Shown piece by piece: positions 24,731 to 50,198 of a stretch of DNA of 64,000 nucleotides. The DNA is taken from positions 62,001 to 126,000 of the forward strand of contig JAKRSF010000009.1 of the NCBI GenBank assembly GCA_022402445.1. The letters run 5' to 3'. The first letter of the stretch is position 1; the number at the start of each line of letters is the position of its first letter. The notes below the pieces were generated by a model that was not told the origin of the DNA, ran no database searches, and worked only from the letters and a program-made list of their open reading frames with translations. Both the position numbers and the translations under genes were made by a program. The DNA is from Cyanobacteriota bacterium (GTDB lineage Bacteria > Cyanobacteriota > Cyanobacteriia > CACIAM-69d).

Positions 24731-24837
<107 letters not shown>

Positions 24838-26682: not shown

Positions 26683-27087
26683 CTAGAAATCGAAGCGTAG
26701 CTGACCCTGGCGTTCGAGCTTGAGGGCGCGCTTGGCAGCCATGGCGGCGGGCGTGATGTCCATCCGGCAGTGACATGGCAGGCATAAGGCCATTAGATTT
26801 TCGGGGCGGCAATCCTCCGGGCGATGGTTGAGGTGGGCCACAGAAAGGACAAACCGGCGCGGTTTGGGGACTTGGATCAGGCCAAATTCGTCATCCTCTT
26901 CCCAGTCGTAGAGGTCTCCGGCCCACCGGGTTTGGGAAAGCCGGATCCGGTCCTCCAGTTGCTCGCGGGTTTCGCCCGGTCTGCGGCACGGTCTGCCGCA
27001 CTGTTGGCAGGTCCAATCGGCGGCGTCTTTGATCGCGCGGGCGATCGCGTTCCAGTTTTTCGGGTAGAGGTGGCGTTGCATCGGCAT
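26683..27087 (-). CDS. HNH endonuclease-family protein
   Basis: About 134 residues. Zinc-knuckle cysteines CQQCGRPCRRPGE appear early and CLPCHCRMD late. The HNH core is SVAHLNHRPEDCRPENLMALCLPCH. Small HNH proteins are common in phages and mobile elements, with roles in packaging, restriction or homing. The start is ATG 27087 (ATG 27081 also possible), 6 bp after the preceding gene's stop in the same direction. Confidence 0.88.
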   Translation of the reverse strand: MPMQRHLYPKNWNAIARAIKDAADWTCQQCGRPCRRPGETREQLEDRIRLSQTRWAGDLYDWEEDDEFGLIQVPKPRRFVLSVAHLNHRPEDCRPENLMALCLPCHCRMDITPAAMAAKRALKLERQGQLRFDF

Positions 27088-27092
27088 GGTGG

Positions 27093-27593
27093 TTAACCCG
27101 CGATCGCGGCGTCGATAGTTGGTGGATAGCGGTAGTTGTAGACGACAAGGCACCGCAGGGGCAGATAGATCACATCCCCGCTATCGGTGGCACAGGCGGC
27201 AAAGGGTGCCCAATCACCGGGGGGATGGATGCCCCGCCGGGGGCGATCCGCCATCTCCCGCAGGTGCAATTTCTGATGCAGCCAGGGGGCGTCCCAAATC
27301 CGGCGGTGGGATTGGCTGTAGATCCTGGCAACCGGCCCCAGGGCAACAACCACGGTGTCGCCGGGACGGGGGTAAAAATCCCAGCGATACAGCGGATCCT
27401 CAATGGTCTCGCCGGTCTGGGGGTTCTCCAGTTCAAGCCAGTAAGCGCCATCGTCATCAACCCAGCGATCGCACACTTTCCATGGGTCATGAATATCTGA
27501 AATGGGATTCCAGAGCAGATCATCGGGGCGGGGGTGGGTGGCTGGATCATTGTCGCGATAAGCGGCCATGGTTCGGGGTGGCGCACGGGCCAT
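27093..27593 (-). CDS. Hypothetical element protein
   Basis: About 166 residues starting MARAPPRTMAAYRDND. It is rich in Trp, Tyr, Asp and Pro (YWLELENPQTGETIEDPLYRWDFYPRPGDTVVV, YLPLRCLVVYNYRYPP), suggesting a small beta-barrel (SH3-like) fold. No family is recognised. The start ATG lies 24 bp from the edge of iteron array b', so its transcription must pass through or start within the iterons. Confidence 0.6.
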   Translation of the reverse strand: MARAPPRTMAAYRDNDPATHPRPDDLLWNPISDIHDPWKVCDRWVDDDGAYWLELENPQTGETIEDPLYRWDFYPRPGDTVVVALGPVARIYSQSHRRIWDAPWLHQKLHLREMADRPRRGIHPPGDWAPFAACATDSGDVIYLPLRCLVVYNYRYPPTIDAAIAG

Positions 27594-28030: not shown

Positions 28031-28402
28031 GATCGACATGATCGACAAAATCGCTGTATCGCTTTCCGTGCTTGGGTTTGAGTGTGTCGATCGCATGATC
28101 GACAGTGATCGACATGATCGACAGCGATCGACAAAACAGGTGTGAAATAGCTAAAATGCTTACAGGCTAAGGGTTGTGGCGATCCAATAGCCAAGATTTC
28201 GGGGGCGGGGATTCGGGCGGTGTCGATCGCGTTTTGCGTGGGGCGATATCGTCAGTAAGACCCGCCCCGTCTACGTTTCGGGCGTTTCTCGCTGGATTTG
28301 TCGATCATTTGTCGATCCTGTCGATCGTTGTCGATCACGCGATCGACAGGGTTAACGTCAGGCGTGGCGGGCGTTTCGGCGGTTTTGTCGATCATGTCGA
28401 TC
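28031..28402. repeat. Iteron unit Y: inverted pair of TGTCGATC arrays
   Basis: Fourteen exact copies of TGTCGATC/GATCGACA form two arrays. Array b starts at 28031, 28040, 28085 (inverted), 28097, 28107, 28116 and 28126. Array a starts at 28299, 28310, 28319, 28329, 28341 (inverted), 28386 and 28395. A lone copy sits at 28221. Array b has exactly the spacing of b' in unit X; array a mirrors it. Array a lies inside the coding 3' end of the primase gene. All copies differ from unit X at the same base (C for T). Confidence 0.93.
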
Positions 28403-30972: not shown

Positions 30973-31235
30973 TCCGGTGCCCCCCCATCCCAGTCGGTGT
31001 TTTCGCTGTGGCTGACGGGCGAAAGGTCGTGGACGACCAGGGAGGTGACCCACACGATCGCGCGGACGATGCCCTTGTGGTTGGTCTGGCTGCCCTGGTG
31101 TTCGATCGCGTACTTCACGGCGTCATGGGGGTGCCCTTCGCGGGGCCAGAGTCCGGCGGTGAGGGCGATCGCCATCCTCATGGATTCCATCTTGGTGAGG
31201 GTGACGATGATGGGGGTGGCGGGATGCAAATTCAT
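30969..31235 (-). CDS. Hypothetical element protein
   Basis: An 88-residue protein starting MNLHPATPIIVTLTKMESMRMAIALTAG. A short hydrophobic stretch (GIVRAIVWVTSLVVHDL) precedes an acidic tail ENTDWDGGAPE. No family is recognised. Its start and stop both form ATGA overlaps with neighbouring genes, strong evidence that it is translated in the primase operon. Confidence 0.7.
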   Translation of the reverse strand: MNLHPATPIIVTLTKMESMRMAIALTAGLWPREGHPHDAVKYAIEHQGSQTNHKGIVRAIVWVTSLVVHDLSPVSHSENTDWDGGAPE

Positions 31236-37398: not shown

Positions 37399-37426
37399 GC
37401 CCCCGCCCTGGGGGCTCCCATCCATG
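37399..37426 (+). promoter_or_regulatory. Translation leader with hairpin, copy 2
   Basis: The second copy of the CCCCC-loop-GGGGG hairpin plus CTCCCATCCATG, ending at the ATG of the 37424 gene and preceded by TAATTCAC (37384-37391). See copy 1 at 37019 for the comparison. Confidence 0.6.
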
Positions 37427-37627
37427 AACAGCTTCGACCAACGCCTACTGATTGCGATCGCCGGGATTCTTGTCGCTGGCGTCTGGGTTCGCACCGTCCT
37501 GATGCCCATGCGCAGCCCCGCCAGAACCCAAGAAATCATCATCGAAGGGGTTAACGGCCAGATGGTCACCCCCGCGCCCGTCGCTCCCGTCGAACTCCCC
37601 TGCGAACAGGAGGCGATCATCCTATGA
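37424..37627 (+). CDS. Small single-span membrane protein
   Basis: A 67-residue protein. MNSFDQRLLIAIAGILVAGVWVRTVLMP has one transmembrane helix near the N-terminus. The rest (EIIIEGVNGQMVTPAPVAPVELPCEQEAIIL) is short and polar. Its stop overlaps the next gene's ATG (ATGA). In size and layout it resembles minor membrane proteins of membrane-containing phages or of plasmid partition/transfer systems; no homology is recognised. Confidence 0.65.
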   Translation: MNSFDQRLLIAIAGILVAGVWVRTVLMPMRSPARTQEIIIEGVNGQMVTPAPVAPVELPCEQEAIIL

Positions 37628-38280
37628 GCGCGATCGTCCCCATCAATCGCGGGCAGTTGCAGCAAGCCTACGGCGACAGCCCCGCCGCCCTCCCCTCCCA
37701 TCGCACATGGGCACAGGATCGGGTGAATTGGGCCATGCAGCAGATTGCAGCCGGTGCCGCCGAGCGGGTGATCGAGGATTTGCAGACCCAGCAGGCCGCG
37801 ATCGCCCGCCACTTCGAGAGCCGCCTGAACCAATTGGGCCTCACCGCCCAGCGGCAACAGGAGCTTTATAGCGCCCTGGCTGAAAATCAGGCCGCGATCG
37901 CCGCCGCCGTCGGCACCCTCACCACAGCCATCCACCAACAAACCGCCGCGATTCAGGACCACCGGCAAACCATGCAAGCGCACGGAATGGCCGTCTTGGA
38001 CAATTCCAAGCGACTGGACCAACTGACCCAGGAAATGCGCCGATTGGCCGCTGCAACCGAGAACGCCGCGATCGTTCAGCAGGCCCAGGCGGACTTGCGA
38101 CATCTCCCCCCTTCGACCGGCGGACGGGTGGATCACCACCACCACCACAGCGACAGCATGGGCTATGTAGGGCCGGTGATCGCCGCCGCCATGGCTGCCA
38201 CCATCGTTGGCGCAGCAGTCTGGGGGCCGTCTAACGTTCCCCAACAGACCCAAATCCGCGTCCAGATGGGAGGCCAGTAG
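37624..38280 (+). CDS. Coiled-coil protein with C-terminal transmembrane helix
   Basis: A 218-residue protein. A long helical, Gln/Ala-rich region (QQAAIARHFESRLNQLGLTAQRQQELYSALAENQAAIAAAVG and onward) ends in a His cluster (VDHHHHHSDS). A single TM helix follows (YVGPVIAAAMAATIVGAAVWG) with a short tail. The predicted topology is a cytoplasmic coiled coil on a membrane anchor. Co-translated with the 37424 gene. Confidence 0.7.
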   Translation: MSAIVPINRGQLQQAYGDSPAALPSHRTWAQDRVNWAMQQIAAGAAERVIEDLQTQQAAIARHFESRLNQLGLTAQRQQELYSALAENQAAIAAAVGTLTTAIHQQTAAIQDHRQTMQAHGMAVLDNSKRLDQLTQEMRRLAAATENAAIVQQAQADLRHLPPSTGGRVDHHHHHSDSMGYVGPVIAAAMAATIVGAAVWGPSNVPQQTQIRVQMGGQ

Positions 38281-38285
38281 AAGCC

Positions 38286-38516
38286 ATGACTGCCTCCTAT
38301 GACGAGTCCTACGTTGCCCAGCAAGTCAGGCTGGCGAAAACCCTTGCAGATCAAGGCCATGACCGGGGCGCTAGAGACGCCATGGCCCGCGCTCTCAGCG
38401 CAATCCTCCCCCACCAATGGCCTACCCCCGATCACGTTGCCGAGGCTGGCTACGACGACATACACCTCCTAACGCTTCTCTCCGCTCTCGGTTTTGACGA
38501 TCCCTCATCCCACTAA
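38286..38516 (+). CDS. Small hypothetical protein
   Basis: A 76-residue protein starting MTASYDESYVAQQVRLAKTLADQGHDRGARDAMARAL, helical and TPR-like in spacing, with an acidic C-terminus. No family is recognised. It sits 5 bp after the preceding stop within the operon and ends where the TAATTCAC motif of the next gene begins. Confidence 0.6.
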   Translation: MTASYDESYVAQQVRLAKTLADQGHDRGARDAMARALSAILPHQWPTPDHVAEAGYDDIHLLTLLSALGFDDPSSH

Positions 38517-38522
38517 TTCACC

Positions 38523-39236
38523 ATGACCTACACCACCAACGGCCACACCCCCGGCGCTGAGCAGCGCATCGCGATCGACCCCGCCACTGGCCTTGCTATG
38601 GGCTACGCTCCAGCAGAAAACAACGCCCCTTTGAACCTCCCGCCGCCGCCCAGCGAAGCAGCACCCCCGCCCCCTCCAGCACCCGCACCGGCTCCAGCGC
38701 CAGCACCCGCACCGGCTCCAGCGCCAGCACCCCCACCGGCCCCAGCACCAGCGCCCGCCGCATCCAAGCCCACCATCGGGCAACGGGTGGATAATTTCGC
38801 CAGCCGTCTCTCCAAGCCGAAACCGCCCCAGCCCGCCGCGATCGCCTCTACCAACACCGTTGAGGTGGAACTGGTGGGGCAGAAGGTGGAACGGCTCACC
38901 CGCGAGGTGGCGATCGAGGTGGACGCGACCTGGTGGGGGAACTGGGTTAACGAGCCCAGCGGTCGCATTGTGGCCGGTGCCCTGCTGGGGTGGGGATTAC
39001 GTCGGTGGATCCCCTGGCTTGCGGGGGCTGGCCTGTTCTCCGTGGCGTCCGGCGTCTCCCTTGGCGTGGCGATCATCATGCACGGCGATCGATTCGTGAG
39101 GCCCGCCACAGCCCAACGGGCAGGGGTGATCGTGATAATCGCCGCGATCGCCCTTCAAATCAGCCCGCCGCGCCCGAACTTCGCCATCCCCGAATGGCTC
39201 AACAATTTCCTGTATCCCCCAACCCAAGTCCGGTGA
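38523..39236 (+). CDS. Proline-rich membrane protein
   Basis: A 237-residue protein. Residues about 40-80 are an Ala-Pro repeat that would form an extended rod. A beta/coil segment (NTVEVELVGQKVERLTREVAIEVDATWWGNWVNEPSG) is followed by two or three TM helices (IVAGALLGWGLRRW, LAGAGLFSVASGVSLGVAIIM, AGVIVIIAAIALQI). An extended Pro-rich arm on a membrane base recalls TonB-like or phage-assembly proteins. It overlaps the ATPase gene by one base (TGATG). Confidence 0.7.
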   Translation: MTYTTNGHTPGAEQRIAIDPATGLAMGYAPAENNAPLNLPPPPSEAAPPPPPAPAPAPAPAPAPAPAPAPPPAPAPAPAASKPTIGQRVDNFASRLSKPKPPQPAAIASTNTVEVELVGQKVERLTREVAIEVDATWWGNWVNEPSGRIVAGALLGWGLRRWIPWLAGAGLFSVASGVSLGVAIIMHGDRFVRPATAQRAGVIVIIAAIALQISPPRPNFAIPEWLNNFLYPPTQVR

Positions 39237-40471
39237 TGAGCATCATTCAAATCCAAACCCAAGCCCATCAATGGGTGGGGGCGTGGCTATCGGCGGGCTT
39301 CACCCCGGATCGCATCCGCAAGGAAGCAGCGGCCCGAGAAATGCCAGAAGAGGCCCGCCGCGCGATCGCCGATGCCCTACTGGCCTACGCGGCGGATTGT
39401 GCGATCCGCCCCCAACATTCCCCGGAGGCGATCCGGGGGGCGCTGGCCCGGTTGGCAGCCGGTGGTCTCGATTTATCCGATCTGCGGCAATGGTGCCGCC
39501 AAAACCTTAACCGGGCCGATCTGGACGTGGCCGAAAGGCTGCTGAAAAACGAGGAATCCCGCCGCGCCGCCCTGCCCGCCGCCCGCCCTGACGCGATCGC
39601 CCCATGGTCCGTCCTGTTGCCCCAGGGCGATCGCTTCAAGCACGTCCTGATCTTGGGGTCCACCAACGGCGGCAAAACCTGCCTGACCGAATGGCTAGGG
39701 CACCAACAGCCCGGATTCGTGCGGGTGCTGACCACCAAGCGCAAGGCGACCCAGTGGAGGGGGATGGAGGTGATCGGCCACCCCCGCGATTACGCCGCCC
39801 TCAAGGTGGCATGGGAGGCGCTCATCTCCGAAATGGACCGCCGCCTAGGGTTGATCGACCACGCGGGTACGGCCTATCAGCACCTCAATGTGTTGGTGGA
39901 CGAATTGCCCGCTCAGGCGGCGAACCTGGGAAAAGATCATCAGCACTGGCTATCCACCCTGCTACGCGAGTCGCGAGAGTCCCTGATCCGGCTGTTCGTT
40001 TTGGTCCAGGGGGGGCAGTTGAAGACCATCGGGCTCGAAGGGGAAAGCGACCTTAAGGGATGCCTGCACTGGGTCCGATTGGGCAAATTCGCCCGCAGCC
40101 ATGCCCAAAAACTCTATCGCGATGGCCTGTGCGATCGCGCGGCCCTCGACTGGGTTTTACAGCAGCGCTACCCGGCCACGATTGACGACGCGATCGCGGA
40201 GGTGCCGGACCTCACCCACTGGCAACCGGGCACCGCGTCCCACACCTTCCCAAGCCCTTCCACTGCTGAAGCGTTCAGAAGCCACGGAAGCCCTGTGGTA
40301 GTAGGCGCTTCCACCATTTCGGTCCCTTCCCAGGAAGCCGACGTAGACCCGCAAAAGCTGCAAACGGTTCGGCTTTTGATGGGGTCGGGGGTCAGCAAAA
40401 CCCGCGCGATCGAGCAGGTGTTTGGCTGTTCTGGGGGCCGACAATTTCAGCGGATTTCGTCGCTGCTGTAG
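39236..40471 (+). CDS. P-loop ATPase (FtsK/HerA- or packaging-type)
   Basis: A 411-residue protein. An N-terminal helical region (about 1-130) precedes the ATPase core: FKHVLILGSTNGGKTCLTEWL (Walker A GSTNGGKT), HLNVLVDELP (Walker B) and RLFVLVQGGQLKTIGLEG (sensor-like). The C-terminus LQTVRLLMGSGVSKTRAIEQVFGCSG looks like a winged/HTH DNA-binding tail. It could pump DNA in virion packaging, conjugation or partition. Last gene of the membrane-protein operon, followed by a terminator. Confidence 0.75.
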   Translation: MSIIQIQTQAHQWVGAWLSAGFTPDRIRKEAAAREMPEEARRAIADALLAYAADCAIRPQHSPEAIRGALARLAAGGLDLSDLRQWCRQNLNRADLDVAERLLKNEESRRAALPAARPDAIAPWSVLLPQGDRFKHVLILGSTNGGKTCLTEWLGHQQPGFVRVLTTKRKATQWRGMEVIGHPRDYAALKVAWEALISEMDRRLGLIDHAGTAYQHLNVLVDELPAQAANLGKDHQHWLSTLLRESRESLIRLFVLVQGGQLKTIGLEGESDLKGCLHWVRLGKFARSHAQKLYRDGLCDRAALDWVLQQRYPATIDDAIAEVPDLTHWQPGTASHTFPSPSTAEAFRSHGSPVVVGASTISVPSQEADVDPQKLQTVRLLMGSGVSKTRAIEQVFGCSGGRQFQRISSLL

Positions 40472-40626
40472 GGCGCGATCGCCTCACCATCATCACCACC
40501 ATCGGGCGGGGAGTAGGCGCAATCCACCCCCCGCCTTTTCAATGCGCGGCCACTGGCAGCAGCCCCCCGCTCCACCCCCTTCCGGAACGGGGGCCAAGCC
40601 ATCAACCAAGCCAGCAAACCGCGCAT
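40447..40626 (-). CDS. Possible small protein
   Basis: A 59-residue frame starting MRGLLAWLMAWPPFRKGVER and ending APYSSDEIR. ATG 40626 lies 10 bp after the stop of the co-directional 40637 gene, with AGGGGTGA upstream. It overlaps the 3' end of the ATPase gene and the plus-strand terminator. The short hydrophobic, basic N-terminus could insert in a membrane. Supported only by context and ribosome site. Confidence 0.35.
   Translation of the reverse strand: MRGLLAWLMAWPPFRKGVERGAAASGRALKRRGVDCAYSPPDGGDDGEAIAPYSSDEIR
40505..40539 (+). terminator. Terminator of the rightward operon
   Basis: GGCGGGG (40505-40511) pairs with CCCCGCC (40529-40535), followed by TTTT. It lies 34 bp after the ATPase stop and separates it from the convergent 40637 gene. 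Confidence 0.75.
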
Positions 40627-40636
40627 GGGGTCACCC

Positions 40637-41356
40637 CTAGACGTTCGGGATCATGTACTCGCAGTAAAGGGCCAATTGCCCCGCCGTCGCGCCATTCCCC
40701 GTGAAGCCGACAACCAACTCCGCCCCGGACGCCTCCATCACCTTGGGCGCAAGATCGATGATCGTGCCTGCGCTGTTGTCAATGCTCGCAAAGTTCACAT
40801 CAAGGAACTGGGTCAGGTTGCCCGTAATCCCCAGCGTCAGGCGCGGCGGGGTGCTGAATCCGGCGTATTGGGTTTTGATCGCCATCCGCAAGCGCCAGAT
40901 TTCAGCCTGCGGGGGCAGCGTGACCCAGGCATTATCGCCACTGGCAAACTGAACGATTTTCTTCTCGACTTTGACGGCCCCAGCGGCCAGCGTCGCCAGG
41001 GGGACAAAGCCAAGGTTTTCGCCTTGGGCCGTCAGTAGGCTCACGGTTTCAGCAGCGGGAGCAGTGGCGGGGAAGCGTAAGGCGTAAGATGCCATCATCG
41101 TGTCGCGTGACAGCAGCTTGACGCCGTAATCACTGCCCAACTGTCCGGCTTCGGGGCCACCTGCCAAAATCATGATTCCACCACCCATCTGGTTCGGGAG
41201 GGAATCCATTGCGTAAGCATGAACGGGGCCAGCGTAGATCCCGCCGCCATTAGCGATTTCGATCCCTCCACCTGCTCTGGTGAAAATAGTGGATTCTCCC
41301 GCAATGGAAAACTCTGGTTTGGTGGTGCCGTCGAGATCGGCGAAAAACTTGGACAT
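40637..41356 (-). CDS. Beta-rich hypothetical protein (possible structural protein)
   Basis: A 239-residue protein. Gly-rich start (ESTIFTRAGGGIEIANGGGIYAGPV), then alternating strand-forming segments (AVKVEKKIVQFASGDNAWVTLPP, EIWRLRMAIKTQYAGF, PRLTLGITGNLTQFLDVNFA) and an end GQLALYCEYMIPNV. No signal peptide or membrane span. The composition suits a capsid, spike or adhesin-like beta-sandwich, but no family is recognised. Last large gene of a leftward three-gene set. Confidence 0.62.
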   Translation of the reverse strand: MSKFFADLDGTTKPEFSIAGESTIFTRAGGGIEIANGGGIYAGPVHAYAMDSLPNQMGGGIMILAGGPEAGQLGSDYGVKLLSRDTMMASYALRFPATAPAAETVSLLTAQGENLGFVPLATLAAGAVKVEKKIVQFASGDNAWVTLPPQAEIWRLRMAIKTQYAGFSTPPRLTLGITGNLTQFLDVNFASIDNSAGTIIDLAPKVMEASGAELVVGFTGNGATAGQLALYCEYMIPNV

Positions 41357-41441
41357 GGATTAAAACCTTGTGCGAGGGGGTGGACTCGCTCCCCGCGATC
41401 GCGCTGAAAGTGTGGCGAGGCGATCACCCCTCCAGTCTAAA

Positions 41442-42308
41442 TCACTCCCATTGGATTTCCAGCAAGATCGCCCCATCCGGTGCGGCCATGGTCATCGTCG
41501 CGATCGCGGCCACATCCGCCGGGAACAGAGCCGGATCCAGGGGAATCGTCCCCGTACCCCCATCCGGATCTGTAGACCACGCCCCGCCAAACTCCCCAAA
41601 CCGGGCCGGATCCCCTTCTACCCCCAGCGTGATGCTCACCGGCACCTCAAAATACAGCCCCTCATTGACCTCAAGGCGAATCGAATAGGCCGCGCGGCCC
41701 CCAGGAATCACCCCGAGCGATCGCACCAACTCCGTCTCTTCCGTCTCATCTGCCGATTCTAGGAACACCGCCGCACTCCCAGGGCCGGGGGGAGGCACTG
41801 GCACCGGCACGGGTGACGGCGTGGGCGAAGGACCGGGCGTGGGCGAAGGACCGGGCACAGGTGATGGACCGGGCACAGGCGAAGGACCGGGCACAGGCGA
41901 TGGCCCCGGCACAGGAACCGCCCCCACCTCCGTGATCGCCGCCCCTTGCACCAGGATCGCCCCCGCCCCCTCACCGCTCCAGCGCAGCACCAGGCGATCG
42001 CCCGATTCCAGCCGCGCACTCGGGTGAAGCCCCACCGTCCCCCCCGCCGTCGCCGCCCACACCGGCATCGCCCCCACCAGCCGCTCAGTGCCATCCGGCG
42101 CGATCGCCCACACCTCCAGCCCCGCCGTATCCTCCCGCACCGACAGATAAATCTCCGAGACCAGCAGCGGCCCCGCCGCCACCAACACCTCAATCTCAAC
42201 CGGATCGCCCGTATCAAACGCCAGCGTCGCCAGATCCGATCGCCCGGACCCCACCGCCGCGCCCCCACGGCCCCCATTAATCAGCCGCACACCAGGGTAA
42301 ATCGTCAC
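41442..42308 (-). CDS. Two beta-rich domains joined by a GPSPVP-repeat hinge
   Basis: A 288-residue protein. Domain 1 (about 1-130) reads like a beta-sandwich (DPVEIEVLVAAGPLLVSEIYLSVRED). The hinge (about 133-180) repeats PGPSPV/PGPSPT and is encoded by imperfect 18-bp DNA repeats. Domain 2 is again beta-rich (AAYSIRLEVNEGLYFEVPVSITLG) and ends AAPDGAILLEIQWE. This resembles spike or fibre proteins with a polyproline rod. ATGA overlap with the upstream gene indicates coupling. Confidence 0.65.
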   Translation of the reverse strand: MTIYPGVRLINGGRGGAAVGSGRSDLATLAFDTGDPVEIEVLVAAGPLLVSEIYLSVREDTAGLEVWAIAPDGTERLVGAMPVWAATAGGTVGLHPSARLESGDRLVLRWSGEGAGAILVQGAAITEVGAVPVPGPSPVPGPSPVPGPSPVPGPSPTPGPSPTPSPVPVPVPPPGPGSAAVFLESADETEETELVRSLGVIPGGRAAYSIRLEVNEGLYFEVPVSITLGVEGDPARFGEFGGAWSTDPDGGTGTIPLDPALFPADVAAIATMTMAAPDGAILLEIQWE

Positions 42309-43078
42309 TTGCAGACCTCCCCATGGATGGTCACCGGCCCACCCGGCGCGATCGCCGTAATCGCCCCCAAATATTCCGGCCCAATTTCAAGCGTCCCCCC
42401 CGGAGCCAGCGGCAGCCCCAGCCCCGGAGACGCCAGCGGCCCCCGGTTGATCCAGCACACCACCTCCCCCTGATTCGCCAACAGCACCGATTGCCGTTCA
42501 GCATCCGCAGGCGCGATCGTCGTCCGAAATTCCCCCACCGTCCACGCCATAGGCGAACACTGTTTCAATGCCATCGGACGGGGTTGAGCTTCCTCGTGGA
42601 CCTCAGCCGTAATCAAAACCTTATCCTCAGCCCCAGGGAGCCCATACCCCACATCCGTCATTTTGGCCCCCAACTCCACCCCAAAACCCAGCCCATAGGC
42701 CACGTTATCCGACAAATATTTCAGCAAATCCACCGTGTAATAGGGGATCGATTCATGGTTTTGGATCGAGCAGGTTACGACTTCCTGCCAATCGCTACCC
42801 GGAACCCGCAACAGCAGATCCAAATGCGCCCGCGCAGATTTCCAAGAAATATCCCGCGCCAGCAAATATCGCGATTCCCTTGACGGAAAATCATCGCTTG
42901 GAGTAGGCGGAACAATCGCCGGTAGGCTACGGATTCGCACCCGTGCCGTTAGGCTTTTCACCAATCCGTAATAATGCGAAATCGGCAAATCCCACCCTTC
43001 ACCAGGGGTATAGACTAAAGTAGGAGAAGACCCTTGAATCCGCACCAATCGATTGCTAATTCGGCTGTAAGTTGTCAT
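42305..43078 (-). CDS. Beta-rich hypothetical protein (possible structural protein)
   Basis: A 257-residue protein. The C-terminal part (QSVLLANQGEVVCWINRGPL, LGLPLAPGGTLEIGPEYLGA, ITAIAPGGPVTIHGE) follows a pattern often seen in phage-encoded beta-sandwich proteins. The N-terminal half has YYGLVKSLTARVRIRSLP and LARDISWKSARAHLDLLLRV. No domain name can be given. Its ATG overlaps the divergent 43077 ATG in the palindrome CATG. Confidence 0.62.
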   Translation of the reverse strand: MTTYSRISNRLVRIQGSSPTLVYTPGEGWDLPISHYYGLVKSLTARVRIRSLPAIVPPTPSDDFPSRESRYLLARDISWKSARAHLDLLLRVPGSDWQEVVTCSIQNHESIPYYTVDLLKYLSDNVAYGLGFGVELGAKMTDVGYGLPGAEDKVLITAEVHEEAQPRPMALKQCSPMAWTVGEFRTTIAPADAERQSVLLANQGEVVCWINRGPLASPGLGLPLAPGGTLEIGPEYLGAITAIAPGGPVTIHGEVCK

Positions 43079-43283
43079 GCCCCTCGCATTACCTCCCCAA
43101 TCCCGTCCTGTAGTGCGTCCTTTGGATTTCTACCTTAATTTAGCGCCCCCTTCCATGCTTCGGCGCATGTTGCCCAGCGAAGTAGAAGTAGCTTGGAAGA
43201 AATTTGCAAAATCCCGCCGTCACCCCTTTTGGGATATCACCCTCCAGCGCCCCGCTGGCCCTTACGATCAGGGGGGTTCTTAG
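43077..43283 (+). CDS. Small basic hypothetical protein
   Basis: A 68-residue frame starting MPLALPPQSRPVVRPLDFYL and ending FWDITLQRPAGPYDQGGS. Its ATG shares bases with the leftward ATG at 43078 and no ribosome site is visible, so an internal start at 43155 (MLRRMLPSEVEVAWKKF) is a real alternative. The following gene begins at the next base after its stop, supporting translational coupling. Confidence 0.5.
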   Translation: MPLALPPQSRPVVRPLDFYLNLAPPSMLRRMLPSEVEVAWKKFAKSRRHPFWDITLQRPAGPYDQGGS

Positions 43284-45320
43284 GTGGGAGTCCCTGAGTG
43301 GTTCGCAGGTATTTCTGAGGGTGCATCGGCCCTACAGGCGGCGCTTTCCGATCCCGATCAAGCGCTGACCTTTGTCAAAGACGCCGTAGATATGGCGGAC
43401 TTGATCCTACCTGGGGATGGCCTAACTGTTCCCATCGGCCCCTTCGAGATTGAAATTGAATCAGTTGAGGGCGAAAAGGACTGGCTAGAGCCCAATTCCC
43501 CCGGTAGCAACTGGTATTCCGATAGAACCGGCGACCCCCCAAGCCCCTTCGACTGTGAACGGTGGCCCAACTCGCCATTCTGTCAGAGCGTCCTAGATAC
43601 CGTTAAGGAGGGATGGTTTGGGATTGGCGTTTCAATCTCGATTTCCGAGAACGAAATTTGCATCAATCCCACATTCACTATCGCGTTTTTCACAATGCCG
43701 ATGGGGAATTTTTGCTATCGGCGGACCCCAGAAGAGGAACCGGAGCCCGAACCCCCAACGTTTAACGATCAAGACGGCCCTCTCTGTACGGGGTGCTTAC
43801 CGCCAACCAGGAAACCGGCCCTCTGGGGTTTATATGATTACAGTCGATCCTACTGGGTTGTCGAGTCTGTCCCAGTGTTTGATCGAATGACCAATACTTG
43901 CAGCATGACCCCCCCTCAGCAACAGGGGATAGATCACGTTGGCAGTGGAACCTTTGGCGGCGTGTGCCCCCCTGCTAGGAGCTTGCCGCTGCGTAGGATT
44001 ATTCAAGGGGATTTTGATTTAAAAGATCCTGAAAACCAAGTCCGCTACCAATACTGGGTTAACGATTTTCCGTTCCGCAGATTCTCAAATTGCACCGCCA
44101 TTGTCTTTAGTAAATTCCAAAATGTCGTAAGAGACCCTGAACGTAAGTATGGCGTTCGCGTCATTGACACCAGGACATCATCGGGTGGCCACGATCAAAT
44201 CGACTCCTACACGCAATATTTCTGGAAAGCATCGGACGATCTAGCGGATCGGGTCGCGGCCATTCGGGTAAATTCTGAGTATTCAACTAGGCTAAGGCCA
44301 ATCCCGCGAGAAATTACCGGCACCTACTGGAATGGCTTTAGAAATGTTCCCTATAATTGCGGAACCTCTAACAAATATTGGACTGATGTTGTTAAACGAG
44401 TTGTGGCCCCTGCTGTCGTCGAGACGGGTGATCGCCGCCGCCCAGAACCCCCGCCCTTAGACCGGAGACCTGAAGATATGGGATGTTGTCCAGAAACCCA
44501 AGACCAATTGCAGTGGTTGGTCAAAAAGTTGGGCTTAAATCGCCTGCCTGTGGCGGCGACGGAATCTATTACTGCGGATGAAGAAAAAACGATCCGACTG
44601 GATAGTTTGGTGGAGTTGGTTCACCACGGCGCTAAGTCTACCCTGGAGGTGCTGGGGGAATGGCCGGTCAAGATCGAGATTCGCACGGATGAGGGGGAGG
44701 AATCAGGTGAAATCAAGCTCCCCAACGTGGCGGAAACCCTCGCGGAACTGTTTGGTCTGGAGTTTGGCACGTCGCGCGATTCTGATGCTGCCTATGCCGC
44801 CGCGATCGCGGGCTTAGGCGTCTCCAGTTCAATCCTGTCCACCCTGATCTCAACCCTGGACCGTGTTGAAGCCCTCAGCGAGTTTGTGGGAGGGCGCGTC
44901 AAAGCAGTTACCCGCGAATATGAATTGCCGTTTGATCCATTCGCGGACCCTGGCACTACTTCCCAAGAGAAGCTGTTTACCCGAACCTTGGTCAAGACTG
45001 AAGGCTGGGAAAACGATGACAAGCTGGTTTTAGCCACCCTTGTTTCAGAGATCAGGGAACAAATCAAACTTTTAGAAGCGGTGTTTGTAGAGCGAGGCCA
45101 TCCAGAACAGTTGATGGGGCGTCTTCAAAAACTTGCAGATTTAGCCAAAGGGGTCGTTTCCGCATCGGAAATGCCAGAAGAAGACAAGAGTTGGCGGCAA
45201 ACGGTCACTGAATTGGAGACACAGGTTAACACTTACCTTGAAGCTAATGGAATGCAAAAGGTTAAGCTCAACATCAAAGGACAAATGACCGACACGCCGA
45301 AAGAGGATCCCAAGCCATGA
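43284..45320 (+). CDS. Large hypothetical element protein
   Basis: A 678-residue protein from GTG 43284. Features in order: helical start FAGISEGASALQAALSDPDQ, a beta-region (GDGLTVPIGPFEIEIESVEG), a Cys-containing part with acidic-Pro linker EEEPEPEPP and CTGCLPP, a Tyr/Arg-rich middle, and a helical C-terminal third (VSSSILSTLISTLDRVEALSEFVGG, IREQIKLLEAVFVERGH). GC content is visibly lower than in flanking genes and HIP1 sites are nearly absent. No family recognised. Overlaps the next ATG (ATGA). Confidence 0.65.
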   Translation: MGVPEWFAGISEGASALQAALSDPDQALTFVKDAVDMADLILPGDGLTVPIGPFEIEIESVEGEKDWLEPNSPGSNWYSDRTGDPPSPFDCERWPNSPFCQSVLDTVKEGWFGIGVSISISENEICINPTFTIAFFTMPMGNFCYRRTPEEEPEPEPPTFNDQDGPLCTGCLPPTRKPALWGLYDYSRSYWVVESVPVFDRMTNTCSMTPPQQQGIDHVGSGTFGGVCPPARSLPLRRIIQGDFDLKDPENQVRYQYWVNDFPFRRFSNCTAIVFSKFQNVVRDPERKYGVRVIDTRTSSGGHDQIDSYTQYFWKASDDLADRVAAIRVNSEYSTRLRPIPREITGTYWNGFRNVPYNCGTSNKYWTDVVKRVVAPAVVETGDRRRPEPPPLDRRPEDMGCCPETQDQLQWLVKKLGLNRLPVAATESITADEEKTIRLDSLVELVHHGAKSTLEVLGEWPVKIEIRTDEGEESGEIKLPNVAETLAELFGLEFGTSRDSDAAYAAAIAGLGVSSSILSTLISTLDRVEALSEFVGGRVKAVTREYELPFDPFADPGTTSQEKLFTRTLVKTEGWENDDKLVLATLVSEIREQIKLLEAVFVERGHPEQLMGRLQKLADLAKGVVSASEMPEEDKSWRQTVTELETQVNTYLEANGMQKVKLNIKGQMTDTPKEDPKP

Positions 45321-46876
45321 GTTTAACTTTGGTCAAGTCGGCTTTGGCTTCCAGAACCATTCGCAAGGCTTTGGGCGGAGAAAAGGAAAAAAGCGGCATT
45401 AGGTTGATTGATCTGCGGTCTCAGATCAAAGTTAAGGAAGGGGACGAAGAAAAGAACGTCATACAAAAAATATGGAATTTTTTCAGCGGTGCCGGTGGCT
45501 GGTTAATGGGAGCCCTCAAGGGGCTTGTTAGCCCAATCGCCTCTTCCCTCGGGGGGCTTTGGAGTATGGCAACCCAAGGTGTTTATCAGTTGTTCTTCTT
45601 CGATTGGAATGTATCAGATGAACAAATTGATAAGCAAATTAAAGCGGCATGGGAAGCAGCGGCGGGTGCCCTAGGCGAGGCGGTTGGCTATGCTTTGGGT
45701 GGGGGGCTCAACATTGGGGCGAGCACCCTGATTCCCAAAATTGGGCCATCTGTTGCAGCTTATGCCTTGGGAGAATTTACAGAAGAGGCTTGGGCGGAAT
45801 TTAAGGGGGCCTTTAAGACAATCATGAATACAGCGGCCCGAACGGCGGGGTTGCTGGCCTTTAAAGGGGCACGCTTTTCTATCAAGGCCATTGGTGAACA
45901 GTTGCCATTGCCAGAAAGTTGGAAAAAGAGTCTTCGATCATGGGGGGATGGCAAAAAGCCATTTATTGTCTACAAGGCTGTTGAAGAATGGATTGAAAGC
46001 AATTTTGATGGGATGCTCGAAAAGTTTTTGGTGGGCAAATGGGAGGGTTTTTTTGAAGGCTGGATGGAGACGGGGATGATCGTCGCGGGGGCCATTGATG
46101 CCACCTTGGCGGCGATGAAGGCCCAGAAAGATCAGGGCGGCACACCCCGGACCCTCGAAATTGACCTGTATCCCAAGGAAGACAAGGCCGGATCGGAAGG
46201 CTCGGGCGATAAGGATGATAAAGGCGGCAAGCCTGAGCAGGGCAAGGTTCTGCTGAATGCGCCCCAGCCGCTGCTGAAGCAAATGGTCTACTCCACCTTG
46301 GCGCAGCATCAGATATTGGGCGATCGCAGCGTTGGCCTACTGGTGGGCCAGCCCGCCGAGGAGTTTGTGGCGGCGCGGCTGCTGACCCGGCAATTGACCC
46401 TTGTATTCCGGCGCGGGGCCAGCAAGCCGCCCTGGAAAGACGGCACCAAAACCGCCGGAACCACCACCGTCACCATCCCCAACCCCAAGGTGGGCCTGAG
46501 TTGGAACAACATCAAATCCGCTTGCAGCAAGTGGACATGGGGCGAGTTTGAGGCGTCCTGCTTGCTCAGTTCGGGGCGGATCCTGAAGGTGCGCGGATCG
46601 TCGCCAGACGAAGCCAGGGATAAGGCGAAACAGCTATTGGCGCTGTCTTCGGACGAATACCACGCCATCAATGTCACCCAGGAAATGGAGCGCCACCCCG
46701 AACTCAAAAAGCGGCCCCAGATCGCCTATCCCGCGCGGGGGACGCTGTTGGTGCGGCGGGCCAGCACCACATTGGAAGGGCGCACGGACCTGAAGGGCAA
46801 CCGCTGGACTGAAACGCCCGTGCATTTTGACCTGTGGCCCGACAGCGAGCCGCCTGGGCTCGAACCGTTCCCCTAA
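45317..46876 (+). CDS. Large hypothetical protein with hydrophobic segments
   Basis: A 519-residue protein. The N-terminal half has several Gly/Ala-rich hydrophobic helices (FFSGAGGWLMGALKGLVSPI, AAGALGEAVGYALGGGLNIG, MNTAARTAGLLAFKGA), suggesting membrane interaction. A charged Lys/Gly/Asp linker (KEDKAGSEGSGDKDDKGG) leads to a C-terminal domain, PAEEFVAARLLTRQLTLVFRRG and onward. Coupled to the preceding gene. Could be a membrane-penetration or tape-like protein of a particle, but that is speculation. Confidence 0.65.
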   Translation: MSLTLVKSALASRTIRKALGGEKEKSGIRLIDLRSQIKVKEGDEEKNVIQKIWNFFSGAGGWLMGALKGLVSPIASSLGGLWSMATQGVYQLFFFDWNVSDEQIDKQIKAAWEAAAGALGEAVGYALGGGLNIGASTLIPKIGPSVAAYALGEFTEEAWAEFKGAFKTIMNTAARTAGLLAFKGARFSIKAIGEQLPLPESWKKSLRSWGDGKKPFIVYKAVEEWIESNFDGMLEKFLVGKWEGFFEGWMETGMIVAGAIDATLAAMKAQKDQGGTPRTLEIDLYPKEDKAGSEGSGDKDDKGGKPEQGKVLLNAPQPLLKQMVYSTLAQHQILGDRSVGLLVGQPAEEFVAARLLTRQLTLVFRRGASKPPWKDGTKTAGTTTVTIPNPKVGLSWNNIKSACSKWTWGEFEASCLLSSGRILKVRGSSPDEARDKAKQLLALSSDEYHAINVTQEMERHPELKKRPQIAYPARGTLLVRRASTTLEGRTDLKGNRWTETPVHFDLWPDSEPPGLEPFP

Positions 46877-46889
46877 CCCCTAGATCGCC

Positions 46890-47090
46890 ATGGACCTCAA
46901 GCTGTTTCCCCGTTTATCCACGCGCAGCCGCCGCGCGATCCAGCGGACGAAGAAGCGCGGCGGCGATCCGTATGTTTATCGGCCACGCGGCACCTTGATG
47001 GCTCGGTTGGCGCAAGAAACGGGCATGTCGGTGACCGAGGTGTATCGCCAACTTTTGAGGGAGCGCGAGGTGCTGATACGGGGCCGTTGA
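46890..47090 (+). CDS. Small very basic DNA-binding-like protein
   Basis: A 66-residue protein with an Arg/Lys-rich start (LSTRSRRAIQRTKKRGGDPY) and a helix-turn-helix-like end LMARLAQETGMSVTEVYRQLLREREVLIRGR. It could bind DNA as a regulator or condense DNA. It lies 13 bp after the preceding gene. Confidence 0.62.
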   Translation: MDLKLFPRLSTRSRRAIQRTKKRGGDPYVYRPRGTLMARLAQETGMSVTEVYRQLLREREVLIRGR

Positions 47091-47109
47091 AATTTTTTTT
47101 GGGGGCACC

Positions 47110-47143
47110 GTGCTAAGGATCGCTTAAAGGATATTCTTAGCAC
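47110..47143. terminator. Hairpin after the 46890 gene
   Basis: GTGCTAAG (47110-47117) and CTTAGCAC (47136-47143) form a perfect 8-bp stem with an 18-base loop in the 144-bp gap before the 47235 gene. There is no following T-run, so attenuation or a binding site is as likely as termination. Confidence 0.45.
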
Positions 47144-47167
47144 ATACGCCCAACGACGCAGCCAGAC

Positions 47168-47230
47168 CCCTTGCCATACAAGGGATTGGGGCGCTATTGA
47201 TTGGTTAGTACAGAAAACAAACCAATCCCT
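47168..47230 (+). promoter_or_regulatory. Mutually exclusive hairpins before the 47235 gene
   Basis: CCCTTG (47168-47173) pairs with CAAGGG (47179-47184). AGGGATTGG (47181-47189) alternatively pairs with CCAATCCCT (47222-47230), which includes the expected ribosome-site region. The two stems share bases and cannot both form, an attenuator-like layout. The gene has no other obvious Shine-Dalgarno sequence. Confidence 0.5.
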
Positions 47231-47234
47231 CCCC

Positions 47235-47540
47235 ATGACTGCCCCTACCGCAATTTTTCCGAGCTACGCCTTCGATGGTTCCGTCATTTCCCTCAGCCTC
47301 GCCGATCTGTCCGGCTTGACCGCCGCCGAAGCGGATGCAGCGACGGGCGACGGGCGAAAAGTGGCATTCGAGCTGGTCCGGCAGATTCAGGCCCGCATTG
47401 CAGCAGCGAACCCGGCTCCGGTGGGCGTGACTGCCACGAAAAACACGCCGACCGGCCTCACCGCGACCACCGTGCGGCAGGGCTATAACTTCAACTTCGA
47501 CCTGGATATTTCCGCGTCGGATGTGGTTAACGCTTCCTAA
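47235..47540 (+). CDS. Small hypothetical protein (candidate abundant structural protein)
   Basis: A 101-residue protein starting MTAPTAIFPSYAFDGSVISLSLADLSGLTAAEAD. It is Ala/Thr-rich, uncharged in the C-terminal half, and beta-rich at the end (GVTATKNTPTGLTATTVRQGYNFNFDLDIS). Its private leader hairpins and the GC-rich hairpin right after its stop are what one expects of a gene expressed at its own level; no homology is recognised. Confidence 0.62.
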   Translation: MTAPTAIFPSYAFDGSVISLSLADLSGLTAAEADAATGDGRKVAFELVRQIQARIAAANPAPVGVTATKNTPTGLTATTVRQGYNFNFDLDISASDVVNAS

Positions 47541-47553
47541 GCGTGGGTAAGTT

Positions 47554-47573
47554 CCCCGGCCTGAAAACCGGGG
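47554..47573 (+). terminator. Hairpin after the 47235 gene
   Basis: CCCCGG (47554-47559) and CCGGGG (47568-47573) with an 8-base loop, followed by a T-rich stretch (TTCATTTGTTTTGC). It is probably a partial terminator that isolates expression of the 101-residue protein from downstream genes. Confidence 0.6.
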
Positions 47574-47613
47574 TGACTTCATTTGTTTTGCTCATTTCTT
47601 TTGGTGGTTAACC

Positions 47614-48018
47614 ATGCCTATCCGTCGCGATCGCGAATTCTGCTACGTGATGATTAAAGCTCGACCTGATGGCTCCGATGTTCTGCCCTATGGCTTTATG
47701 AGTGGAGCCGACGCAGGGGATCGAGCAGCTTTGGGTCAAGCCGTTGTCGGCTCGGCTACTATTACCACAGGGATTCCTATCGTGTTTGGAGCCAACCGGC
47801 CCAAGCCTGCTCGAATGACTAAGGTAAAGGCAACGGGATCGGAGAGTAGCTTTGTCGCCTTTGCTAACGTCGCAAGCGCCAAGGCTGCGGACTGGATGAT
47901 TACATCTCCGGCGAAATATGCGGTTCCTCGCACAACTAAAAAACAAGTTGCTGTGTTTGTTGAGACCAATGGTCTATCATCCGACGGCGCAATTCAAGTA
48001 CGCCTGGATGATGGATAA
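47614..48018 (+). CDS. Hypothetical protein, paralogue of next gene
   Basis: A 134-residue protein starting MPIRRDREFCYVMIKARPDG. The central FGANRPKPARMTKVKATGSESSFVAFAN segment is shared with the next gene (FGVNRPKPANLATIVSGRSTGSFVGDAQ), so they are diverged tandem duplicates. Beta-rich and slightly basic. The conserved motif NRPKPA may bind a common partner. No family recognised. Confidence 0.65.
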   Translation: MPIRRDREFCYVMIKARPDGSDVLPYGFMSGADAGDRAALGQAVVGSATITTGIPIVFGANRPKPARMTKVKATGSESSFVAFANVASAKAADWMITSPAKYAVPRTTKKQVAVFVETNGLSSDGAIQVRLDDG

Positions 48019-48232
48019 AGGCGATGTGCAAGCATTTGGGTCGCAGCTTGGCATCAAAACTGTTGGAGCCAATGATGATGTTGCCTTTGGGGTGAACCGC
48101 CCGAAACCCGCAAATCTTGCCACAATTGTTTCGGGGCGTTCGACCGGATCGTTTGTGGGCGATGCTCAATACGATAATGCCGTAGTTCAAGGAACTTGGG
48201 TGGTTCGTAAAGCAGCACAACCGCCCAAATAA
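48008..48232 (+). CDS. Hypothetical short paralogue
   Basis: A 74-residue protein starting at ATG 48008 (or 48011), overlapping the previous gene's last codons. It has FGVNRPKPANLATIVSGRSTGSFVG and ends VVQGTWVVRKAAQPPK. It lacks the N-terminal ~45 residues of its neighbour, so it represents the core domain only. Confidence 0.6.
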   Translation: MMDKGDVQAFGSQLGIKTVGANDDVAFGVNRPKPANLATIVSGRSTGSFVGDAQYDNAVVQGTWVVRKAAQPPK

Positions 48233-48237
48233 GTAAC

Positions 48238-48498
48238 ATGATTATCCTTCCCGGCGATCCGCTTTTTGATTTGACCTTGGCGACAATCCCGCCACCTGGA
48301 TCGCGAGGGGTGGATTTTCTGGTTGCTGACTCGGAAAGTGGGATTTTACGGCCTGCCAACTATGCAGACTTAGTTGAATACATGGAGGGCGGTGAATACG
48401 AAAAACGGATGTATGCGATAGGCGATTCAGCCGATCCTGAAGAATCGGCTTGGATTGCCAGCCAGGAGGAACAGGATGGATGGCCTTTATTGGGCTGA
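48238..48498 (+). CDS. Small acidic hypothetical protein
   Basis: An 86-residue protein starting MIILPGDPLFDLTLATIPPPGSRGVDFLVADSESGIL and ending with the acidic ADPEESAWIASQEEQDG. Five bases separate it from the preceding gene, and its last 23 bp overlap the next gene, whose ribosome site lies within it. No family recognised. Confidence 0.6.
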   Translation: MIILPGDPLFDLTLATIPPPGSRGVDFLVADSESGILRPANYADLVEYMEGGEYEKRMYAIGDSADPEESAWIASQEEQDGWPLLG

Positions 48499-48886
48499 CG
48501 TGGCACTACTCCATCCAAGTCCGAACGAATGGCGCGAGACGGATTCCCTGAATGAGATCATTTTCGGCGATTCGATTCGGGTGATCTTTGAATCAGATTT
48601 TGGTTTTCAACCGACCTATCGCCTTGGGCATGTTTGGATGCGCCAGGTGTTCAATATGCCCGCCCGGACGGTTACGCAAGCGTTTCGCCTGTATCCAAAG
48701 CCTGAGCCGATGGTGCTGACGCTGGACACACCGGCAGTCATCAAGGGCACCGCCTGGGACGTACTGCGGTGGCTACAGGTTAAGCAGGGGGGGCGATATG
48801 GGCCGTTTTTTCCCCTCCGTTTGCGGGTTCAGCAGCTACGGATCATTGATCCTGATGCGTTTGAATGGCCTCCCGCCGATCCTTAA
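48476..48886 (+). CDS. Hypothetical element protein
   Basis: A 136-residue protein. ATG 48476 has a perfect AGGAGG 6 bases upstream (48464-48469), inside the preceding gene. The sequence is beta-rich with aromatic residues (YWADVALLHPSPNEWRETDS, FGFQPTYRLGHVWMRQVF, GRYGPFFPLRLRVQQLRI). Last of the small-gene series; no family recognised. Confidence 0.65.
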   Translation: MDGLYWADVALLHPSPNEWRETDSLNEIIFGDSIRVIFESDFGFQPTYRLGHVWMRQVFNMPARTVTQAFRLYPKPEPMVLTLDTPAVIKGTAWDVLRWLQVKQGGRYGPFFPLRLRVQQLRIIDPDAFEWPPADP

Positions 48887-48936
48887 CTCTTTAACCCCTG
48901 ATTCCTGGGGTGCGCTGGCGATCGCGCGGCCCCAGG

Positions 48937-49443
48937 ATGACTATTGATCGCCATGCTCCCCGTCTGGCTGCCTGTGGCGGGTGGCCAGACCCCACCCCGC
49001 AGGATCGCGCCATGCAAAGCTTTCTGAACAATTTCAACGAGCGCTTGAGGGATCTTGAGGATCGGTTGGGCGAGCAAATGCAGGCCATGGAAACGCGGCT
49101 GGGTGAGCGAATTGGAAAACTTGAAATACTGATCAATGGATCCGGTGATAGTTTTTTGGCAGTATCCTCGCGGGCCAAATCCGAGATCAAAGCCCTGGCA
49201 TCGCGGCAGACGGAATTACGTGAAGAGGTGAGGCAAAACCTTGCGCGACTTGAGGAGTTGGAGTCTTTGCGCGGCCAAATTCGTGAACTGAAGCGGATCG
49301 CCTCGATCGCCCACATGGTCACCCGAACACCGGGGGGGCTTTATACCTGGTCAGTGCTTTTTATCGGGCTTCTGCTGGTAGTCGATTCGTTTGTGGTGGC
49401 TTTTGGCTTTGATGCGATCGTCCGGGGGCTGCTGGGGCTGTGA
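48937..49443 (+). CDS. Coiled-coil protein with C-terminal membrane anchor
   Basis: About 168 residues from ATG 48937; ATG 49012 (MQSFLNNFNERLRDLED) is a plausible shorter start. Heptads RLGEQMQAMETRLGERIGKLEILI and LREEVRQNLARLEELESLRGQIRELKRI form a long coiled coil. One TM helix TWSVLFIGLLLVVDSFVVAFGF sits at the end. It overlaps the convergent membrane-protein gene by 93 bp. Confidence 0.6.
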   Translation: MTIDRHAPRLAACGGWPDPTPQDRAMQSFLNNFNERLRDLEDRLGEQMQAMETRLGERIGKLEILINGSGDSFLAVSSRAKSEIKALASRQTELREEVRQNLARLEELESLRGQIRELKRIASIAHMVTRTPGGLYTWSVLFIGLLLVVDSFVVAFGFDAIVRGLLGL

Positions 49444-49908
49444 GCGGAAGCGGACGATCATCTCCAGAAAGTAGAGCAGGTGCCACAAGGGGATCCACAT
49501 CAGCAGGGCGAACGCCCCCGCTACGCCAGCCACCTCGTCATCTTGTCCACCGAACAAGGCGATCCATGGCAACATCGCCAGGGCCAGGGATCCCCAGAGG
49601 GCCAGCCAGCCAAACAGGGCTTCCCACAGGCTTTCCGAGGTGAAGGGAACGCGCCAGCGGCTCCAAAGCAGGTTCAACCCTCTCATCAGCAATTGGTGAC
49701 CGATGAAAATGGCTGCGATGCCCAGCAGCGTCCCAAAGGCGGTCATGGCTCCGAACAGGGCGATCGCTTCCTGGGGAGTCTCGACGGTGCCGTAGACGCC
49801 TTCGGGGGCTTGGGCGAAGGGAACCCAGTAACCCACAGCGATGCCGCCTACCACCACCAGCATTCGCCCCCAGATGATCGGCAGTGCCTTGAATACGTTG
49901 AACTTCAT
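49351..49908 (-). CDS. Four-span membrane protein of unknown function
   Basis: About 185 residues from ATG 49908 (AGAGG upstream). Hydrophobic segments: IIWGRMLVVVGGIAVGYWV, IALFGAMTAFGTLLGIAAIFIG, LFGWLALWGSLALAMLPWIALF and VAGVAGAFALLMWIPLWHLLYFL. The C-terminal tail is basic. It is the last gene before attR and runs toward the element interior. No family recognised; a holin-like role is conceivable but unsupported. Confidence 0.7.
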   Translation of the reverse strand: MKFNVFKALPIIWGRMLVVVGGIAVGYWVPFAQAPEGVYGTVETPQEAIALFGAMTAFGTLLGIAAIFIGHQLLMRGLNLLWSRWRVPFTSESLWEALFGWLALWGSLALAMLPWIALFGGQDDEVAGVAGAFALLMWIPLWHLLYFLEMIVRFRSQPQQPPDDRIKAKSHHKRIDYQQKPDKKH

Positions 49909-50122
49909 GGGGGCCTCTGGACGATGATCTCTGTGCTTATTGTCCCCCGCGATCGCGCAGAATTGGTGAGATGGCCCAGGTCCATTCCCAACGTTCCCGG
50001 CGGTGGTTTTGGCCCCTTTCCCTTGGGGGGATCCCCCCTCGTTTTTGGGCGAGTTTGCGCGCGGCAAAAATCCTCACGCTAGAAGGGCCGGTATTTGGTC
50101 GGTCTGGCGTTTGCCCCTTGGG

Positions 50123-50198
50123 CTGAAAATCCTCGTGTCGGCGGTTCAAGTCCGCCTCCTGGCATTCTCTAAAACCCATATCCCGCAAGGGTTTGAGC
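50123..50198. repeat. attR: 76-bp attachment core
   Basis: Identical to 24762-24837. It carries only the anticodon-loop-to-3' part of tRNA-Phe, without the first 31 nt, so it is not a second tRNA. It marks the right end of the element; beyond it the two flanks share only scattered bases. Confidence 0.95.

Follow-up and report, generated by a model that had tools for sequence, protein, structure and literature searches.

A tRNA-Phe-integrated element of a cyanobacterium is probably a temperate, apparently non-tailed phage of a diverse family

The Corticoviridae and temperate non-tailed phages (PM2, Vibrio phage fNo16) have small circular or integrated genomes that encode a packaging ATPase together with a block of small, uncharacterised structural proteins. 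Non-tailed double-jelly-roll viruses of the Tectiliviricetes/Corticoviridae-like kind form virions with an internal membrane. Their genomes measure roughly 7-18 kb, and the FLiP and Odin groups of small non-tailed viruses lack a packaging ATPase (PMC5894146). The main text of the 2018 survey of double-jelly-roll viruses does not mention the host phylum of the family described here (PMC5894146). We analyzed a stretch of 64,000 nucleotides of a Cyanobacteriota bacterium genome (assembly GCA_022402445.1, contig JAKRSF010000009.1, positions 62,001 to 126,000), referred to as the window, which harbors an integrated element whose right-hand genes are labeled D to V. In our assessment this element is probably a temperate, apparently non-tailed cyanobacterial phage in its provirus form and a member of a diverse, undescribed family. 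We know of no isolated non-tailed cyanophage. The element and its relatives share the small circular or integrated genomes and the block of small uncharacterised structural-looking proteins with PM2 and fNo16, as well as an ATPase (H) that aligns with the packaging ATPases of both phages over the full domain. They differ from them in that their genomes are larger, in the tyrosine integrase associated with tRNA-Phe, and in that K, M, N, Q and T show no detectable similarity to the coats of PM2, fNo16 and FLiP or to the PM2 spike.

The original prediction had delimited a unit at 37424-49908; the complete integrated element is larger, spanning 24762-50198 (25.36 kb), and the genes D to V make up its right half. 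A repeat search identified exact direct repeats of 76 bp at both ends, which derive from the 3' half of a tRNA-Phe(GAA) gene, and a tyrosine recombinase gene adjoins the left repeat (attL). Judged by these borders, it is a mobile element integrated in tRNA-Phe(GAA), of the temperate type that uses tRNA sites. Insertion at tRNA-Phe with repeats of the tRNA end was also found in two relatives. In Calothrix sp. HK-06 (L109/L110, NZ_MRCD01000047.1) an exact tandem duplicate of a 20,327-bp unit lies in tRNA-Phe(GAA), with the repeat starting at tRNA nucleotide 32 as it does in the window. Genome G066 has H, K-M-N and an integrase on an element of 19.5 kb that is flanked on either side by a 42-bp copy of the tRNA-Phe end; the core of this sequence also adjoins the module at several other loci.

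Further relatives occur as tandems, circles and plasmids. Goleter apudmare (L106/L107) contains an exact tandem of an 18,006-bp unit, which like the Calothrix tandem can serve to map attP and the size of the unit, and a circular relative is represented by a contig of 12,548 bp whose ends overlap by 127 bp. Two plasmids are relatives as well, namely unnamed14 of Tolypothrix sp. PCC 7601 (20,757 bp) and pMIC7113.08 of Allocoleopsis franciscana PCC 7113 (L120, NC_019743.1; 20,803 bp), the latter with genes for K and M, an N in split form, a member of the T family, an ATPase like H and a protein with a malectin domain. The members thus measure 12.5, 18.0, 19.5, 20.3, 20.8 and 25.4 kb. The PCC-strain plasmids L101 (NZ_CP064893.1) and L120, in whose annotation almost all proteins are hypothetical, appear to be phage-plasmid members of the family. 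Classical phage-plasmids are tailed phages with a terminase and an HK97 coat; the family resembles phage-plasmids in having plasmid-like circular members with structural-looking genes and differs in that neither terminase nor HK97 coat is among the PHROG matches listed for it. A 4.4-kb piece of another relative (L108, Nostoc sp. CHAB 5844 NODE_154) carries a coverage of 235x in its title; should the remainder of the assembly be covered much less deeply, this relative may be present in many copies or have been induced.

The center of the element is a core block, K-L-M-N followed by O, P, Q, S and T, for which no Pfam, PHROG or PDB family was matched; for K, Q, M, N and T no meaningful Pfam, PHROG or PDB-sequence match was obtained, and a weak match of the C-terminal part of N to Rip1 (9oox, E 0.036) was taken to be a probable chance match and discarded. 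N is present in 24 of 386 cyanobacterial genomes (~6%) from 19 genera, and H in 15 of the 386. The block was found in the N-bearing genomes and at 17 further loci, and profile searches of the neighborhoods place K, M and N next to one another in most loci. Since homologs of K, M, N, O, P, Q and S lie side by side in other cyanobacterial genomes, their grouping is more than chance. Text searches of the literature returned no published description of the family, which is apparently undescribed and widespread in cyanobacteria. Two classes can be distinguished: class A, including the window, combines K-M-N with O, Q, S, T and a P-like gene, while in class B the C-terminal half of N is a different one and proteins of ~110, ~150 and ~205 residues replace the class-A ones. 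Family 17 of class B was considered as a homolog of Q and is not detectably related to it. In many relatives N is encoded by two genes. The N-terminal domain of K (~170 residues) is conserved, and the C-terminal part varies among relatives or stands alone (~105 residues); such swapping of C-terminal parts would fit a receptor-facing protein. In most relatives Q is a two-repeat protein of ~210-225 residues, which in the window and in locus L074 is distributed over two overlapping open reading frames. Programmed frameshifting was rejected, as the two copies shift frame at different places and in different directions, and a splitting of the gene fits better. One chromosome (L081 and L082, genome G014) holds the block twice, ~2 Mb apart; the copies share 94% identity over 7.6 kb, and one of them adjoins tRNA-Phe.

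Lysis-type genes were found in ten relatives, in each case downstream of the structural block and in the same orientation, and in six of the ten the product has recognised lysin domains, which are of different kinds (Table 1). The other four (L077, L085, L090 and L094) match PHROG 3000/33083, of which 33083 is annotated as endolysin; their assignment is less certain, as no Pfam domain was found in the three of the four that were scanned. Fibre-like proteins that contain phage tail repeats (PF12789; 5e-20 and 1e-9) are encoded between the block and the amidase gene of L096 and L111, and in L111 the fibre gene is followed by one for a small transmembrane protein. The exchange of lysis genes at one position is a habit of phages and, to our knowledge, not one of conjugation systems. 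Because genes for fibres and for phage enzymes that cut the cell wall lie beside the block in relatives, the elements look like dormant tail-less viruses.

H had originally been predicted to be a P-loop ATPase, and its sequence contains a Walker A motif (GSTNGGKT), a Walker B motif (VLVDE) and the R-x2-R...Q element of the FtsK-HerA group. Searched against the PDB, the H profile finds HerA-type and FtsK chains (5.8e-8, 1e-7 and 5.6e-5) as well as many other P-loop proteins, the latter aligned mainly at Walker A. In profile comparisons the best fit is the PM2 packaging ATPase P9 (96.6% probability, 6.7e-10, 175 columns), covering the whole domain (residues 17-210 of 218), followed by FtsK (93%, 3.4e-7) and the fNo16 ATPase (88.5%); RecA reaches 6.8%, two helicases of related elements 0.8% and 5.3%, and F TraD 1.8%, with shuffled-sequence controls at 0.1-0.3%. 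In a separate comparison a second ATPase type gave 46%. H is thus an FtsK-HerA ATPase, and in these comparisons it resembles the packaging ATPase P9 more closely than it does FtsK or a coupling protein of conjugation. Similar FtsK-HerA ATPases, many of which start with a transmembrane segment, are also encoded on other small cyanobacterial contigs and islands (L021-L024, L026-L028 and L030-L036) in whose neighborhoods the K-M-N block was not found; one of these, the 12.9-kb contig L036, has a primase-like gene.

The proteins of three complete elements, 77 in all, were compared with PHROG. The best 25 of the 53 families matched include integrase, primase/helicase, methyltransferase, endolysin, HNH and repressor families and no terminase, portal, coat or tail family, so that the genes by which Caudoviricetes are recognised (large terminase, portal, HK97-fold coat and tail genes) are missing from the matches listed; in the scans of window proteins, tailed-phage genes appeared only as sub-significant matches. 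The term tailless is used here because tail, portal and terminase genes are absent from these matches. Evidence of a different kind comes from clustered regularly interspaced short palindromic repeats (CRISPR): a 37-nt spacer of another cyanobacterium corresponds to a segment of gene N (89% over 38 nt; 33/37 nt or better), at a place that is homologous in several elements. The spacer, at 1502-1538, belongs to an array with 27 exact repeats (L125:429-2442), and the match suggests that a host reacts to an element of this kind as to an invader. A further twenty short DNA matches had no repeats around them and were rejected as CRISPR spacers. The lysis-type genes, the fibres, the fit of the ATPase, the spacer and the lack of a terminase, portal, HK97 coat or tail module among the matches listed together lead us to favor a non-tailed phage over a transfer machine.

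Several observations weigh against this assignment. The evidence for a virus comes from sequence, and no coat protein was recognised among the element proteins. When K, Q, M, N, T and family 17 were aligned with PM2 P2 and the major capsid proteins of fNo16 and FLiP, hhalign probabilities were at most 1.3%, compared with 99.9% for the coats of PM2 and fNo16 as a positive control. H is not universal, since neither the 18-kb Goleter unit nor the 12.5-kb circle showed an FtsK-type Walker A in a motif scan, which would miss GxxxxGKG variants, and homologs of H also occur away from K-M-N; for both reasons H by itself was rejected as proof of packaging. Only a single CRISPR spacer was found for the family, and neither IMG/VR (scanned with H, N, M and family 17) nor INPHARED yielded a confirmed relative. 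Finally, Pfam and PHROG scans of the window proteins recognised no lysin. Given this and the split Q, we therefore considered that the window copy may be decaying, may encode an unrecognised lysin, or may be intact with U/V serving as the lysin. The apparent absence of the ATPase from the 12.5-kb circle and the 18-kb unit resembles the FLiP and Odin groups, which also have small genomes, and the Finnlakevirus FLiP encodes a putative lytic enzyme; in contrast, the FLiP coat is unmatched by the family profiles, and most members of the family carry an integrase.

Among other explanations we considered a phage satellite, which would encode its own fibres, some membrane proteins and lysis functions and be packaged in the capsid of a helper phage. 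The small size, the tRNA integrase, the primase and the lack of a recognisable capsid or terminase in the matches listed would all agree with it, but we consider it unlikely, since the large conserved set of structural-looking proteins, the own fibres, the lysis-type genes and the packaging-like ATPase exceed typical satellites, and no capsid-remodelling or small-terminase gene was recognised. Satellites resembling the phage-inducible chromosomal islands depend on helper capsids and are usually devoid of lysis or receptor genes of their own.

The original prediction had offered a membrane-containing tailless phage or a transfer machine. The virus half is favored by the lysis-type genes and fibres of the relatives and by the fit of H to P9, with a membrane and a jelly-roll coat as putative features of the particle. 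The second half, a plasmid or integrative element equipped with a transfer machine of a new type in which H would act as a coupling-type DNA pump and K, M and N as a cell-surface conduit, strikes us as rather improbable. It draws on the plasmid forms among the relatives, but PLSDB typing lists both plasmids as non-mobilizable, and no relaxase, mating apparatus or type IV secretion gene was among the matches shown in general scans of the window proteins, in which no search was aimed at relaxases. Moreover, H does not align with F TraD, the one coupling protein compared, and exchangeable phage-type lysins and phage tail repeats would be unexpected in such a machine. It is very unlikely that the elements are tailed phages with head and tail genes diverged past recognition, as the phage tail repeats and some weak tail-family matches might suggest: besides the missing terminase, portal, coat and tail families among the PHROG matches shown, members of 12.5 and 18 kb would be very small tailed phages, and the tail-family matches concern repeats common in many fibre proteins. 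A domesticated, lysis-released protein particle of the bacteriocin or gene-transfer-agent kind would combine lysis-type genes and variable receptor-like proteins with no recognised capsid, and is a very unlikely candidate for elements whose integrase, primase, att sites, tandems and autonomous circles mark them as self-replicating and mobile.

For the favored non-tailed temperate phage, a life cycle can be outlined. Upon induction the element would excise and replicate by means of its own primase-helicase, and a particle would be built from K, M, N, Q, T and P. H, together with the membrane proteins D, E and G, could form a membrane-linked motor that pumps DNA into a preformed shell, and the Gly/Ala-rich hydrophobic stretches of N may interact with a membrane at entry or assembly. 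Particles would be released by lysis, and K and its neighbors, with their exchangeable C-terminal domains, would recognise the host. We tentatively raise the idea, doubtful as it is, that the family constitutes a new lineage of high rank, made up of temperate non-tailed viruses of cyanobacteria, with a coat of the K, Q or T type that has no kinship to known capsids or kinship at the level of the fold only, comprising tRNA-Phe proviruses and phage-plasmids and absent from the virus collections searched. Should a particle exist, viruses of a kind common in photosynthetic bacteria would have escaped notice because their coat matches no known model; the two PCC strains with complete circular members allow a direct test for the particle.

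The features of the window element and the lysin genes of relatives are collected in Table 1. The named genes open where the original prediction had them, on the minus strand for I, J and K and on the plus strand for D-H and L-U, and its descriptions of D, E and G as transmembrane proteins, with E coiled-coil-like and G Pro-rich, of the polyproline hinge in J and of the Gly/Ala hydrophobic N-terminal domain in N were borne out. Of I, J and K, which it had called beta-rich, K leans clearly in that direction and I and J weakly; by such crude propensities, which are weak evidence, beta-leaning composition is clearest in K and T and extends to part of Q. Profile searches of the relatives' neighborhoods found no homologs of I. 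The position of L corresponds to that of a ~60-residue family (family 8) in 15 relatives, the similarity being judged by eye only. Matches of the window DNA elsewhere fall mainly in the Pro/Ala repeat of G.

Table 1. Features of the integrated element (window coordinates) and lysin genes of its relatives (coordinates within each locus).
Feature	Position	Strand	Basis or remark
tRNA-Phe(GAA), integration target	24731..24803	+	ARAGORN
attL, 76-bp repeat	24762..24837	+	exact repeat; crossover point same in Calothrix HK-06
DNA methyltransferase, phage-type	24785..25504	-	PHROG 757, 3.8e-68
Tyrosine recombinase (integrase)	25494..26564	-	homologous to integrases beside relatives; integrase PHROG among element proteins
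HNH-type protein	26683..27153	-	HNH PHROG among element proteins; homolog in L021
DUF3987 primase-helicase	28252..31053	-	Pfam 2.9e-31; PHROG helicase/primase
D, small protein, one transmembrane segment	37424..37627	+	open frame, transmembrane prediction
E, coiled-coil-like region and C-terminal transmembrane segment	37624..38280	+	open frame, prediction
F, small protein	38286..38516	+	open frame
G, Pro/Ala-rich, two transmembrane segments	38523..39236	+	open frame, prediction
H, FtsK-HerA superfamily ATPase	39236..40471	+	motifs; best fit PM2 packaging ATPase P9
I, accessory protein	40637..41356	-	possibly receptor-binding-like, by position
J, two domains with polyproline hinge between	41442..42308	-	putative accessory surface protein
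K, conserved N-terminal and exchangeable C-terminal domain	42305..43078	-	candidate coat, spike or receptor protein
L, small protein, gene immediately before M	43077..43283	+	position only
M, Cys/Pro-rich N-terminal part, conserved C-terminal part; core gene	43284..45320	+	
N, Gly/Ala hydrophobic N-terminal domain and C-terminal domain; core gene	45317..46876	+	
O, small basic protein, conserved	46890..47090	+	
P, conserved, ~100 residues	47235..47540	+	
Q domain 1	47614..48018	+	
Q domain 2, own overlapping open reading frame	47969..48232	+	
S, small acidic protein, motif ILPGDPxF	48238..48498	+	
T, beta-leaning, weak member of wider family	48476..48886	+	
U, coiled-coil-like, C-terminal transmembrane segment	48910..49443	+	relatives carry transmembrane/lysis genes at this position
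V, four predicted transmembrane segments, adjoins attR	49351..50067	-	
attR, 76-bp repeat	50123..50198	+	exact repeat
Amidase_3	L109:13103-13552		Pfam 4.5e-23
Amidase_3	L111:10008-10529		Pfam 1.7e-31
Amidase_3	L096:1197-1730		by homology; PHROG endolysin 1.2e-55
GH24 phage lysozyme and peptidoglycan-binding	L078:12946-13626		Pfam 5.9e-49
GH19 and peptidoglycan-binding	L081:6460-7191		Pfam
CHAP and peptidoglycan-binding	L083:2459-3067		Pfam

Two genes which we take to be DUF29-like lie inside the element (33893-34318, minus strand) and just beyond attR (50540-51004, plus strand). FHA-domain proteins are encoded in two otherwise different members, L074 (9584-10195, minus strand) and L120 (13103-13879, plus strand), the former recognised by eye and bearing a C-terminal hydrophobic segment. 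Near the member at L118, at ~10300-10430, lies a sequence of ~130 bp that resembles a miniature inverted-repeat transposable element and is repeated in many genomes of the same family.

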